This document shows, piece after piece, positions 21,857-29,077 of a stretch of 29,804 nucleotides of DNA (position 1 is the stretch's first letter; each line of letters begins with the position of its first letter). The notes under the pieces were generated by a model. The model was not told the origin of the DNA and ran no database searches. It was given only the letters and a program-made list of their open reading frames with translations. Made by a program: the position numbers and the translations under genes. Source of the stretch: Nitrospinae bacterium RIFCSPLOWO2_12_FULL_45_22 (GTDB lineage Bacteria; 2-12-FULL-45-22); the NCBI GenBank assembly GCA_001803565.1, contig MHDQ01000092.1, positions 1-29,804 of the forward strand. Direction: 5' to 3'.

Positions 21857-22837
21857 ATGGTTGTTCAGACAAAAGAAAAAATCGATATTTCCATAATTAT
21901 TCCCGTATACAATGAAGAGAGGAATATCGCTCCTCTGTGCCATCTTATCACTGAACAGATGGATGGCATAGGGAGGGAATATGAGGTGTTATTTATTGAT
22001 GATGGAAGTAAAGACAGCACCTTTGAAGAGTTGGGCAAAATTGCTAAGGATAATAGACGGGTTAAGGTCATTTCCTTTAGGCGGAATTTTGGCCAGACGG
22101 CCGCTATGATGGCCGGTTTTGACCATGCCCGCGGAGAGATCATAGTAGCGTTAGACGGCGATCTTCAGAATGACCCTAAAGATATCCCTAAGATTCTGGA
22201 TAAGCTTGAAGAGGGGTATGATATTGTCAGTGGCTGGCGGAAAAGCAGGCAGGACAACTTTATCCTGCGGATAATCCCTTCTAAGATAGCCAATTGGCTA
22301 ATAGGATTAATCACTGGCGTAAGACTCCACGATTATGGTTGTTCGTTAAAGGCATATCGGGCTGAGGTAATAAAGAACATCCGGCTATATGGTGATATGC
22401 ATCGGTTTATTCCAGCTCTGGCCAGTATGGCCGGAGGCAAGATCGCCGAGATCGAAGTAAATCACCTTCCCCGCAAGTATGGTAATTCCAACTATGGGTT
22501 ATCACGCACATTAAAGGTGATCTTGGATCTAATTGCCGTAAAATTCCTCCTGGCTTTTTCCACCAAACCTATTCAGTTATTTGGGCTTTTAGGGTTATCT
22601 TCGGTCTTCGGAGGTTTTCTTTTTTTATCTTTAGCCATTTTTATGAAAATTTATCTCAATACAGATATGACCGGAAATCCCCTCCTGCTCTTATCAGTAC
22701 TTCTGGTCTTACTAGGGGTTCAATTCATTGGCACTGGTTTGCTGGCAGAAGTTACTGTCCGTACCTACCACGAATCGCAAAATAAACCTACCTATCTGAT
22801 AAAGCAAATCATTGATAACGGGAAAATGGTTGAGTAG
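21857..22837 (+). CDS. GT2 polyprenyl-phosphate glycosyltransferase (DPM1/GtrB/ArnC-like)
   Basis: 326 residues. GT2 domain with ISIIIPVYNEERNIAPL, FIDDGSKDST, and LDGDLQNDP carrying D100-G-D102, then VSGWRKSRQDN. Two C-terminal transmembrane helices (about 230-262 and 272-305) are typical of GtrB/ArnC-type enzymes, which transfer a sugar from a nucleotide donor to polyprenyl phosphate. It may supply the lipid-linked sugar used by the GT-C enzyme at 14899. AAGAGG lies 6 bases before the ATG. The last codons (ATG GTT GAG TAG) are already part of the period-16 repeat that fills the following gap, so the extreme C-terminus was probably set by the repeat. Confidence 0.9.
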   Translation: MVVQTKEKIDISIIIPVYNEERNIAPLCHLITEQMDGIGREYEVLFIDDGSKDSTFEELGKIAKDNRRVKVISFRRNFGQTAAMMAGFDHARGEIIVALDGDLQNDPKDIPKILDKLEEGYDIVSGWRKSRQDNFILRIIPSKIANWLIGLITGVRLHDYGCSLKAYRAEVIKNIRLYGDMHRFIPALASMAGGKIAEIEVNHLPRKYGNSNYGLSRTLKVILDLIAVKFLLAFSTKPIQLFGLLGLSSVFGGFLFLSLAIFMKIYLNTDMTGNPLLLLSVLLVLLGVQFIGTGLLAEVTVRTYHESQNKPTYLIKQIIDNGKMVE

Positions 22838-22940
22838 TTGAGTAGCTAAGTGGTTGAGTAGTTAACTGGTTGAGTGGGAGATTGGTTGAGTGGCTTCCTA
22901 CTTAACGACTCAACCAGTTTCCCACTCAACCATTTGACCA
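22827..22940. repeat. Palindromic period-8/16 array with long hairpin
   Basis: The unit GTTGAGTG/GTTGAGTA recurs every 16 bp in the left part. A 25-bp arm (22867-22891) is complementary to 22908-22932 around a 16-base loop; its two mismatches would be G-U pairs in RNA. It fills the gap between the GT2 and TauE genes and starts inside the last codons of the GT2. It may act as a transcript stabiliser or attenuator, or be a dispersed non-coding repeat. A related period-8 array occurs inside cysN at 28410-28465. Confidence 0.8.
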
Positions 22941-26060: not shown

Positions 26061-26864
26061 ATGGATCATCTAGACGAGCTAGAAAGTAAGAGTATCTATA
26101 TTATCAGGGAGGCGTATTATCAATTCAGAGACATCGGGATGCTCTGGTCTATCGGCAAGGATTCGACTACACTATTGTGGCTCTGCCGCAAGGCCTTCCT
26201 CGACCAGATCCCTTTCCCGGTCATCCATATTGATACCGCCTACAAATTTCCGCAGATCTATGGCTTCAGGGACAGATATGCAAGAGAATGGGGGTTGGCT
26301 CTGAAAGTGGCGCGAAACGAAGAGGCCCTCATGCAAGGGGTGGGCCCAAATAGTAATGACAAATTAAAGTGCTGCACGGAGCTCAAGACCATTGCATTAA
26401 AGCAACTAATTGCCAGGGAGGGCTATAAGGCTATTTTGCTGGGGATCAGACGGGATGAGCATGGTATAAGGGCCAAAGAGAGATACTTTTCTCCCCGGGA
26501 TCAACAATTCACCTGGGACTACAAGAACCAGCCTGCGGAGCTTTGGGACCAGTATAAATCCGAAGCAGATGATGAAACCCATTTACGGGTACATCCCCTG
26601 CTGCATTGGACTGAAGTAGATATCTGGAGCTATATCAAGCGAGAAAATATCCCCTTTATAGACCTTTACCGGGCAGTGGACGGGAAGAGATACCGTAGCA
26701 TTGGGTGCGAAACCTGTTGTGATCCAATACCCTCAGAGGCCGATGATATTGATTCTATTCTGGACGAACTTATCAATACTAAAACACGGGAAAGAGCTGG
26801 CCGGGCGCAAGACAAAGAACAGGCTTATATGATGCAGAAGCTTCGGGCATTGGGTTATATGTAA
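26061..26864 (+). CDS. cysD: Sulfate adenylyltransferase small subunit (PAPS-reductase-fold ATP pyrophosphatase)
   Basis: 267 residues, slightly shorter than E. coli CysD (about 300). PP-loop SIGKDST at residues 30-36; FPVIHIDTAYKFPQIYGFRD is the typical second strand; LGIRRDEHGIRAKERYFSPRD and the C-terminal IGCETCCDPI segment match CysD. With CysN, the family makes adenylyl-sulfate (APS) from ATP and sulfate, driven by GTP hydrolysis. GGAGGTG precedes ATG. In most genomes cysN follows directly; here an IVP gene within inverted repeats lies between them. The C-terminus runs to 2 bp before the first repeat arm. Confidence 0.88.
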   Translation: MDHLDELESKSIYIIREAYYQFRDIGMLWSIGKDSTTLLWLCRKAFLDQIPFPVIHIDTAYKFPQIYGFRDRYAREWGLALKVARNEEALMQGVGPNSNDKLKCCTELKTIALKQLIAREGYKAILLGIRRDEHGIRAKERYFSPRDQQFTWDYKNQPAELWDQYKSEADDETHLRVHPLLHWTEVDIWSYIKRENIPFIDLYRAVDGKRYRSIGCETCCDPIPSEADDIDSILDELINTKTRERAGRAQDKEQAYMMQKLRALGYM

Positions 26865-26866
26865 GG

Positions 26867-27329
26867 ACGTTCAGGGTTCAACGTTCAACGTTCTGCGTTA
26901 TGAAGATAGAAAGATTTGAGGATATAGAGGCATGGCAAGCAGCACGGAAACTGGTCCAGGAGGTCTATCGAATTACAAAAGGGATAGATTTTTCAAAAGA
27001 CTATGGGTTAAAGGATCAGATACAGAGGGCGGCTGTATCTGCTATGGCCAATATAGCAGAAGGGTTTGATGATCGATCAAATCAAGCATTCATCCAGTTT
27101 CTCAATTATGCTCTTCGATCTGTAACAGAAGTCCAGTCCCATTTATATGTAGCATTGGATCAGGAATATATAACCCAGAGTAACTTTGACGAACTTTATC
27201 AGCAGGCCAATCGAATAAAAAGTATAATAAACGGGTTTATCAGATACCTAAAAACATCAAAATTTGGCTATAAAACTTAGAACGTAGCACGTCGAACGTA
27301 GAACCAAGAACGTAGCACGTCGCACGAAC
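26867..27329. mobile_element. Candidate IVP cassette: ORF enclosed by inverted period-7 arrays
   Basis: The left arm 26867-26899 ends at the base before the ORF's ATG, and the right arm 27281-27313 begins at the base after its TAG. By hand alignment the left arm and the reverse complement of the right agree at 27 of 33 positions, and both are built of 7-bp units related to GAACGTA. The right array continues to about 27329. In RNA the arms would pair and enclose the ORF as a loop. No transposase or clear target duplication is seen, so mobility is inference. Confidence 0.55.
26900..27280 (+). CDS. Four-helix-bundle protein, IVP/S23 (23S rRNA-intervening-sequence protein) family, copy 1
   Basis: 126 residues, normal length for the family. 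It begins with the typical RFEDIEAWQAARKLV, then LKDQIQRAAVSAMANIAEGF, the most conserved motif, and a third-fourth helix region with SVTEVQSHLYVALDQEYI. Family members occur inside intervening sequences of 23S rRNA genes in Leptospira and Coxiella, resemble the Avd accessory protein of diversity-generating retroelements, and are small basic helical proteins. Their function is not established. There is no Shine-Dalgarno: the base before ATG ends a repeat arm. It separates cysD from cysN and is likely to share their transcript. Confidence 0.88.
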   Translation: MKIERFEDIEAWQAARKLVQEVYRITKGIDFSKDYGLKDQIQRAAVSAMANIAEGFDDRSNQAFIQFLNYALRSVTEVQSHLYVALDQEYITQSNFDELYQQANRIKSIINGFIRYLKTSKFGYKT

Positions 27330-27342
27330 AAAAGGAGGCAAA

Positions 27343-28743
27343 ATGGAGGATAAAAAATTAAAGTTGGTTATTGTGGGTCATGTGGACCATGGAAAATCAA
27401 CCCTTATAGGTAGATTGCTCTATGATAGCGGTTCTTTACCTCAGGGCCTTATGGAAGAGATTGAGCAGAGTCTGGTCCAATTGGGCAAACCAGTAGAATT
27501 TGCATATATAATGGATCACTTAGAAGAAGAGAGGATAGAAGAGAAGACTATTGATACGGCCCAGTCTTTCTTCAAAACGGATAATCGGAATTATGTGATT
27601 ATCGATACCCCGGGCCATAAGGAATTCATCAAGAATATGCTTACTGGAGCTTCGCAGGCCGACGCCGCAATCCTTATCGTCTCGGCAATAGAAGGCATAG
27701 AAGAGCAGACCAGGCGGCATGCTTATATTTTGGGTATGTTGGGATTGAAACAGGTCATTTTGGCCATTAATAAAATGGATTTAATAAATTATAGCCAGAC
27801 GCGATTCCAGGAGTTAAAAAATGAGGCTTTGTTATTTCTCGATTCTATGAAAATAAAGCCTCAACGTATCATCCCCATTTCTGCTAAGCAAGGAGATAAT
27901 ATTGGCTCTGTTTCAGGTAATATGAGTTGGTACCAGGGGCCATTTATCCTGGAGGCATTAGACCAGTTTAATATCAGGGAGTCCCTGAATGATAAGCCCT
28001 TTCGGTTTCCTATCCAGGACGTTTATTATGACGTTCTACGTTCAACGTGCGACGTTCCCGCAGAACGAAGAACCTCGAACGTAGAACCTATCCTGGTAGG
28101 AAGGGTGTCATCAGGTAAAATAAGGGTAGGTGATGAAGTAATAATATTTCCTACCAAGACCAGGACCAGAGTGAAATCTATCGAGATATTTCATAAAGAG
28201 AAAGATATAAAGTTAGAGGCCGAGGCAGGAGAGAGCATCGGGTTAACTTTGGAAGACGACCTAGAGGTAAGAAGGGGGCAGGTCATTTGTGCCTATTCCC
28301 CAACAGCCACAGCTCAATACCCATGGTTAACCACCAGGATAAACACAAATATCTTTTGGATCTCTCCCATCCCTTTAAATATTGATGCTCAATCGAGTAT
28401 TTCCTCACCCAACCACCCAACCACCCAACCGCCCAACCGCTCAACCACTCAACCACTCAACCACTCCCCCATCACCATTCGCTGCGCTACGACTGAAGAG
28501 ATTTGCTCGATAGATAAGATTGAGACAAAGTTTGATTCTTCTACCTTAGAGATCATAGAGGAAGATGGGAAGGTATTGGGAGAGACAGAGGTGGGAAAAG
28601 TTGTTATTTCTATTGAAAAACCCATGGTATTTGAGGACTTTAATGAGATTGAAGAACTTGGACGCTTTGTCCTGGTAAAGGAAGGACAGATCTGTGCCGG
28701 GGGCATCATTACAGATATAGATAGAGGTATAGGTGGAGGATAA
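27343..28743 (+). CDS. cysN: Sulfate adenylyltransferase large subunit, EF-Tu-like GTPase, with repeat-encoded insertions
   Basis: 466 residues. GTPase motifs: GHVDHGKST (12-20), IDTPGH (87-92), NKMD (143-146) and PISAK. Two beta-barrel domains follow. The family activates CysD for APS synthesis. There is no fused APS kinase. Two stretches look foreign to the fold: residues 230-249, encoded by a palindromic period-7 array, interrupt domain 2 between QDVYY and ILVGRVSSG; residues 356-375, encoded by a period-8 array, sit between SPIPLNI and [10 protein letters not shown] in domain 3. The C-terminal DRGIGGG is encoded by a period-6 array. All keep the frame, so the gene appears intact and probably functional, with loops enlarged. 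AAGGAGG lies before ATG. Confidence 0.85.
28030..28088. repeat. Palindromic period-7 array inside cysN (GAACGTA family)
   Basis: Four 7-bp units of the form NACGTTC (28030-28057), a 5-base centre CCGCA, then units GAACGAA, GAACCTC, GAACGTA and a partial GAACC (28063-28088). The two halves are inverted copies of the same family that encloses the IVP gene at 26900, but without an ORF between them. It is read in frame as about 20 cysN codons. Confidence 0.8.
28410..28465. repeat. Tandem period-8 array inside cysN (CAACCACY units)
   Basis: Seven consecutive 8-bp units: two CAACCACC, CAACCGCC, CAACCGCT, then three CAACCACT. On the other strand the unit is AGTGGTTG, the same family as the GGTTGAGTG array at 22827. 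Because 8 is not a multiple of 3, the encoded peptide cycles every three units, giving a Pro/Thr/Asn/Gln-rich loop. There are no spacers, so it is not a CRISPR. Confidence 0.9.
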
Positions 28744-29077
28744 GGTGTTTAAGACATTTAAAGATATGCCCATATGGCAAGAGGCAATGGCAGTGGCTGA
28801 GAATATTTTTAAACTTACAGAAAATTTACCTACGAAAGAAGATTATGGGTTTACCTCGCAAATCCGGAGGGCAGCCTTAAGCATTTCTGCCAATATAGCG
28901 GAGGCCTATGGCCGCAATCATACATTGGATAAGATCAATTTCTATTACTTTGGCCGGGGATCAATTACGGAGACCCAAAGCCAGCTTGAATACGGCCGCA
29001 GAGCTCGATACCTTATAACTTCTTTTAAAAGTAAAATTGAGAAATAGCCAATTCCCTCTCCCTTTACCTCTACCTCA
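28723..29077. mobile_element. Possible second IVP cassette flanked by period-6 arrays
   Basis: The left array (28723-28746) has units AGAGGT, ATAGGT, GGAGGA, TAAGGT. The right array (29054-29077) has CCCTCT, CCCTTT, ACCTCT, ACCTCA, which is the opposite-strand form. About 16 of 24 positions pair by hand alignment, weaker than at the first IVP gene and low in complexity, so chance is not excluded. The left array also encodes the end of cysN and supplies the ribosome site of the enclosed ORF. Confidence 0.35.
28745..29047 (+). CDS. Four-helix-bundle protein, IVP/S23 family, copy 2 (short C-terminus)
   Basis: 100 residues from GTG 28745. FKTFKDMPIWQEAMAVAENI and the core motif SQIRRAALSISANIAEAYG identify the family, and ITETQSQLEYGRRARYL matches the start of the last helix. 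It then ends about 20 residues early (LITSFKSKIEK), so the last helix is probably incomplete or altered. GGAGG 5 bases before GTG 28745 makes this the likely start; GTG 28733 inside the cysN end is less likely. It begins 1 bp after the cysN stop. It differs in sequence from copy 1, so the two are not a recent local duplication. Confidence 0.75.
   Translation: MFKTFKDMPIWQEAMAVAENIFKLTENLPTKEDYGFTSQIRRAALSISANIAEAYGRNHTLDKINFYYFGRGSITETQSQLEYGRRARYLITSFKSKIEK

Follow-up and report, generated by a model that had tools for sequence, protein, structure and literature searches.

An IVP gene enclosed by inverted heptad arrays at a cysD–cysN junction, a probable copy of a small, widespread mobile element

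In the Nitrospinae bacterium RIFCSPLOWO2_12_FULL_45_22, a complete gene of the IVP family (PF05635) is inserted between cysD and cysN and is enclosed by two inverted arrays of seven-nucleotide repeats. On balance, this feature probably represents one occurrence of a small, widespread mobile element with the general form (RGTYNNN)n-IVP-(NNNRACY)n, operating by the mechanism proposed below. PF05635 owes its name to an accident of location; it is a large family with solved structures for which we know of no function. In the open-licence literature, no published description of heptad arms around IVP genes was found, and a report elsewhere is possible. The arm–IVP–arm units look like very small mobile elements that form a so far undescribed family.

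The stretch of DNA analyzed here (the window) comprises 29,804 nucleotides and represents contig 92 of a draft genome of 3.67 Mb that is 85% complete. The features of the junction are as follows.

26061..26864, + strand: cysD (PAPS_reduct family), upstream of the unit and co-directional with it
26867..26899, + strand: 5′ arm, heptads ACGTTCA GGGTTCA ACGTTCA ACGTTCT GCGTT with a GTTC core, starting 2 bp past the cysD stop
26900..27280, + strand: IVP ORF (PF05635), 126 aa, four-helix bundle
27274..27326, + strand: 3′ arm, inverted heptads GAACGTA GCACGTC and following, with the complementary portion at 27281–27313
27343..28743, + strand: cysN (EF-Tu-like GTPase), downstream and co-directional
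28031..28090, no strand assigned: solo hairpin without IVP, same GTTC/GAAC heptad family as the arms, in frame within cysN

The initial annotation had noted the complementarity of the two arms, and this is confirmed: without any shift, 26867–26899 and 27281–27313 form pairs at 27 of their 33 positions, a score reached or exceeded by 2 of 20,000 arm pairs of identical geometry placed at random within the window. Their inner ends abut the ATG and the stop of the ORF, which matches PF05635 as its sole family hit (123 bits, E=6e-36). TRF reports period-7 arrays at 26867–26893 and 27274–27326, the latter overlapping the IVP stop codon and terminating just 5′ of the cysN ribosome-binding site, so that the unit occupies the whole gap from the cysD stop (26862–26864) to that site. 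Other repeats are found nearby. A period-8 array within cysN (28406–28464, CACCCAAC) reads in frame as 22 residues that are missing from the related CysN of G006, and an intergenic solo hairpin of period 8 (GTTGAGTA/ACTCAACC) lies at 22829–22938.

Arms of this kind are by no means confined to one locus. When 84,980 species genomes were scanned and IVP loci picked by similarity to the window's IVP, 80 were obtained, distributed over more than 20 phyla (as labeled by sequence-record names), while a viral scan gave only five loci at 29–34% identity. When 120 bp on either side of each ORF were compared, inverted complementary flanks with a score of at least 15 were present at 59.7% of 77 IVP loci versus 0.95% of 315 control ORFs. 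In a permutation version, 56 of 115 loci exceeded the 99th percentile of permuted flanks versus 3 of 227 permuted pairs. A period of 7 fits best in 39 of 49 arms on the 5′ side and in 41 of 54 on the 3′ side, and the arms are polarized, with RGTYNNN 5′ of the ORF and NNNRACY 3′ of it; in the 5′ arms, RGTY occurs 183 times versus 22 for its complement RACY. Letters outside the RGTY core are locus-specific, and a universal single arm sequence is ruled out, since the units differ between loci. Spacing also varies: over 73 loci, the start codon lies a median of 16 bp from the 5′ arm and the stop codon a median of 7 bp from the 3′ arm, and the arm provides or overlaps the stop codon in about one third of them. 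The exact bounding of the ORF initially described therefore stands for the cysD–cysN locus, but as a rule it is excluded by these distances. About 40% of IVP genes lack clear arms, among them a second IVP gene of the window (28733–29047), which overlaps the end of cysN. Overall, arms and ORF almost certainly form one real unit.

The source genome itself contains nine IVP genes, most of them flanked by inverted short-period arrays whose word varies by locus: GTTCAAC at cysD–cysN, and TTCTAGG, AGAACAA, ATTAGGTC, TAAGCTGAT, and AATGCAAAATT elsewhere. One of these units sits between two tRNA genes. Arrays of period 7–8 are scattered genome-wide, many as solo hairpins without IVP and belonging to several unit families, and period-7 arrays reach a density of about 7 per 100 kb, versus 1.2 in IVP-free genomes and approximately zero in simulated sequence. 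The worry that the cysD–cysN arms might be a one-off is thus answered by the other, mostly armed IVP genes; nor do all relatives carry the same unit at the same place, as the flanks and likewise the arms change from one locus to another. Heptad-like arrays also occur in two genomes in which no IVP or Y1 gene was detected, which speaks against the model proposed below. One is G001, of the same order (68% complete), in which neither an IVP nor a cysD match was found; the other is G053 (complete, 6.8 Mb), where very long, near-perfect RGTYNNN tandem arrays are present (e.g., C1:5276498–5276634).

The suggestion that the unit is a mobile cassette is borne out by near-identical copies at new sites, by homology of units across phyla, and by empty orthologous sites, so that the arm–IVP–arm unit is very probably mobile. 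In genome G055, one unit occurs four times at unrelated sites, and the copies, with their arms, are 96–99% identical over approximately 430–620 bp. One copy interrupts a ferritin gene, where no target duplication was seen. The right-end motif of this unit has 32 copies in the genome, some as BIME-like tandem arrays of 201 bp. Units of Desulfobacterota and Elusimicrobia share 76–77% DNA identity from about 40 bp 5′ of the ATG to 10–24 bp 3′ of the stop, between unrelated flanks; as judged from such DNA comparisons, horizontal spread of the unit between phyla is shown. Orthologous junctions without the unit, whose existence the initial annotation had proposed to check, were found. In distant relatives, the two genes either abut directly, as in G006, where the cysD TAA runs straight into the cysN ATG, or are separated by a plain spacer. 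Similarly, a Geobacter junction contains the unit in G060 and G072, an IVP-free heptad hairpin of a different kind in G071, and is clean in G070, and a Kuenenia unit present in G062 and G073 is missing in G074 (one of three species). In two Opitutales, units at the same site have switched word in both arms in concert. A second Geobacter locus (L178) was dropped as an empty site, being too rearranged to read.

Two further observations concern the surroundings of such units and fragments of IVP genes. Units of Desulfacinum, Phycisphaerae, and Calditrichaeota (L087, L103/L105, and L127) are followed by a homologous gene start, CLGxxFENDxARR, and L103 and L127 also have the upstream gene end KVRIVME in common, which suggests a recurrent target or the transfer of a larger piece. 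G009 (L059, G009:C7, and other places) contains many head-to-head pairs of short inverted IVP fragments at a spacing of approximately 170 bp, giving the impression of palindromes whose arms consist of the IVP gene itself.

Arms and protein vary together. Arm similarity rises with IVP protein similarity, even among between-phylum pairs alone (Mantel p=0.001), a trend that is nearly absent in a reversed-polarity control. The GTTC arm type requires 8 changes when mapped on the tree of IVP proteins versus 16 expected, and none of 200 shuffles was equally low. This signal is carried by four-letter arm cores and is absent for three-letter cores (16 changes versus 16.8 expected). The phylum label is clustered on the tree too (38 changes versus 43 expected), and some vertical descent is therefore present. 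It is somewhat more likely than not that each IVP recognizes its own arms, but the co-variation could also reflect simple co-inheritance of the unit.

No recombinase was found within the unit, and the most plausible source of mobility lies elsewhere in the genome. Genes of the Y1_Tnp family (PF01797) are present in 24 of 24 IVP-containing genomes versus 17 of 37 without IVP (Fisher p=3e-6). A reverse transcriptase as mover is disfavored, as such genes occur in 6 of 24 versus 10 of 37 genomes, respectively. RAYT genes in IVP genomes are likewise flanked by inverted repeats, for example GGGGTCAGGTCT, though these are not heptads and no motif common to RAYT arms and IVP arms was found. Because Y1 genes are present in all IVP genomes, reverse transcriptases are unassociated, and RAYT genes are themselves repeat-bounded, a RAYT acting in trans is the best candidate mover. 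That it does move the unit can be proposed only tentatively, at somewhat less than even chances, and the co-occurrence of Y1 genes could mirror genome ecology. Among the RAYT genes, those at L284, L290, and L292–L294, from two phyla, are bounded by a nearly identical inverted repeat (GGGTCAGGTCT), and at L302 (G055:C5:26438–26671) a RAYT-like HUH domain (MPNHVHILLEP) is in an open frame with downstream sequence to 817 aa.

The unit resembles several known systems, most closely the 23S rRNA intervening sequences and the RAYT/REP units, and satisfies the full definition of none of them. Intervening sequences (IVSs) with an S23/IVP ORF are found in the 23S rRNA of Coxiella and Leptospira. The unit shares with them this ORF (PF05635, E=6e-36), complementary borders that form a stem (27 of 33 pairs; predicted RNA z=−3.2), a sense orientation in the transcript, and a sporadic occurrence among close relatives, which makes the parallel with the IVS design drawn in the initial annotation an apt one. 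It differs in being located in protein and tRNA operons rather than in rRNA genes (Rfam gave no rRNA in the window or at 17 other loci), in its arms, which are period-7 arrays with a polarized RGTY core, and in occurring as many units per genome together with solo hairpins; moreover, 23S rRNA IVSs, with the same protein family and complementary borders, are removed by RNase III (PMC4990558), which for the unit would be a hypothetical step. In RAYT/REP systems, a small gene is likewise enclosed by inverted palindromes, which also occur alone at other sites (PMC2817692). As in REP/RAYT systems, REPINs, and BIMEs, the gene of the unit lies between inverted palindromic repeats; these are abundant elsewhere in the genome (as with the 32-copy motif of G055) and co-vary with the protein, and each of the 24 IVP genomes examined contains RAYTs. 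Unlike RAYTs, however, IVP is a four-helix bundle without an HUH/Y1 catalytic domain, its repeats present RGTY every 7 nt in tandem instead of a single hairpin with a GTAG/CGTC-type tag, and its units are strongly sense-oriented.

The kinship of IVP with Avd of diversity-generating retroelements (DGRs), also claimed at the outset, is upheld by the predicted structure (pLDDT 94), whose fold matches 2gsc, 2rld, and 4dwl (Avd), the latter with an rmsd of 1.8 and TM scores of 0.73/0.85. The same fold is seen in the DGR ribonucleoprotein 8ub7, and by this precedent the protein may have an RNA-binding accessory role. Sequence identity between the two is only about 10%, and IVP units have neither the link to a reverse transcriptase nor the template/variable repeat pair (TR/VR) of a DGR. 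MITEs and Rickettsia palindromic elements insert as short palindromes both between genes and inside them, and the in-frame hairpin of cysN is reminiscent of them. In contrast to these elements, the letters of the unit vary by locus, it carries the IVP gene, and no target-site duplication was seen. From classical IS elements and transposons it is set apart by the lack of its own recombinase and of a visible duplication at the ferritin insertion.

The best model is that the element is selfish and that its IVP recognizes its arms. A pentameric, Avd-like four-helix IVP, expressed off the promoter of the host operon, would read its own heptad hairpin, and a Y1 HUH transposase of the RAYT/TnpA-REP type would mobilize the element in trans via the folded arms. 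Heptad hairpins without IVP would be MITE- or REP-like derivatives mobilized likewise in trans. In the transcript, the arms would form a long stem presenting the IVP message in its loop, which may explain why the insertion is tolerated.

The main competitor, although unlikely, is an element acting at the RNA level, an mRNA counterpart of the 23S rRNA IVS that would spread or persist because RNase III excises the long stem formed by its transcript. Its insertion would be selected or made at the RNA level, and therefore a sense bias and sites in tRNA operons would follow. Indeed, among 79 IVP loci, both neighbors point the same way as the gene at 61 and the opposite way at 2, the corresponding counts for control gene triples being 173 and 36; the unit is therefore normally transcribed within a host transcript, and units are located between or beside tRNA genes at L007, L054, L047, and L064. 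HUH transposition alone leaves this bias unexplained, whereas either a need for the host promoter or tolerance at the RNA level would explain it; selection for being expressed off a host promoter accounts for it as well as an RNA-level element does. In the predicted RNA, the arms close into a stem (z=−3.2), and the excess of G-U over A-C among arm mismatches hints at RNA pairing when counted by site (144 versus 95, p=0.002), but it is not significant by locus (30 versus 21, p=0.26). The chances that the arms work as a functional RNA stem, as modeled, seem evenly balanced. While the Avd fold and the published IVSs (PMC4990558) point toward RNA, the unassociated reverse transcriptases and the solo hairpins found in frame within coding genes also argue against this alternative.

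The remaining explanations fare worse than the mobile element with its own arms. Heptad palindromes might be independent and REP-like, with a bare IVP gene entering their apex, as the common solo hairpins of several unit families in the same genome and the IVP-free hairpin of G071 at the junction occupied in G060/G072 would suggest; this is improbable given that both arms and their outer ends traveled along when recent copies moved, that cross-phylum DNA homology extends over the arms, and that arms co-vary with IVP subfamily across phyla. A still fainter prospect is a host device in which hairpin and IVP control the cysDN operon. The co-directional position between the two genes fits it, but the same type of unit lies between unrelated genes in every examined genome and the cysDN genes of relatives lack it, leaving control of cysDN, as one form of the regulatory reading in the initial annotation, without support. 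Finally, period-7 arrays are frequent enough in the source genome (about 7 per 100 kb) for neutral slippage beside a neutral ORF to come to mind. Chance coincidence is nevertheless ruled out by the flank permutation, control-ORF, and random-placement statistics, and with period, polarity, and co-variation equally contrary, this explanation is refuted at the family level and keeps practically no probability.

The association ties PF05635 to a defined nucleic-acid partner, namely polarized, co-varying period-7 palindromes, and thereby makes its function directly testable. It also offers an origin for the intervening sequences of 23S rRNA as well as for the heptad arrays dispersed through many environmental genomes, and bears on the origin of Avd in diversity-generating retroelements. 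More speculatively, and with slightly less than an even chance of being right, IVPs may be the specificity factors of a hitherto undescribed, phylum-spanning class of mobile palindromes, each subfamily reading its own heptad “word” (RGTYNNN) in folded nucleic acid, with the 23S rRNA IVS as the special case that landed in a ribosomal hairpin. If true, this would account both for the puzzling IVSs and for the widespread, unexplained 7-nt repeats of bacteria.
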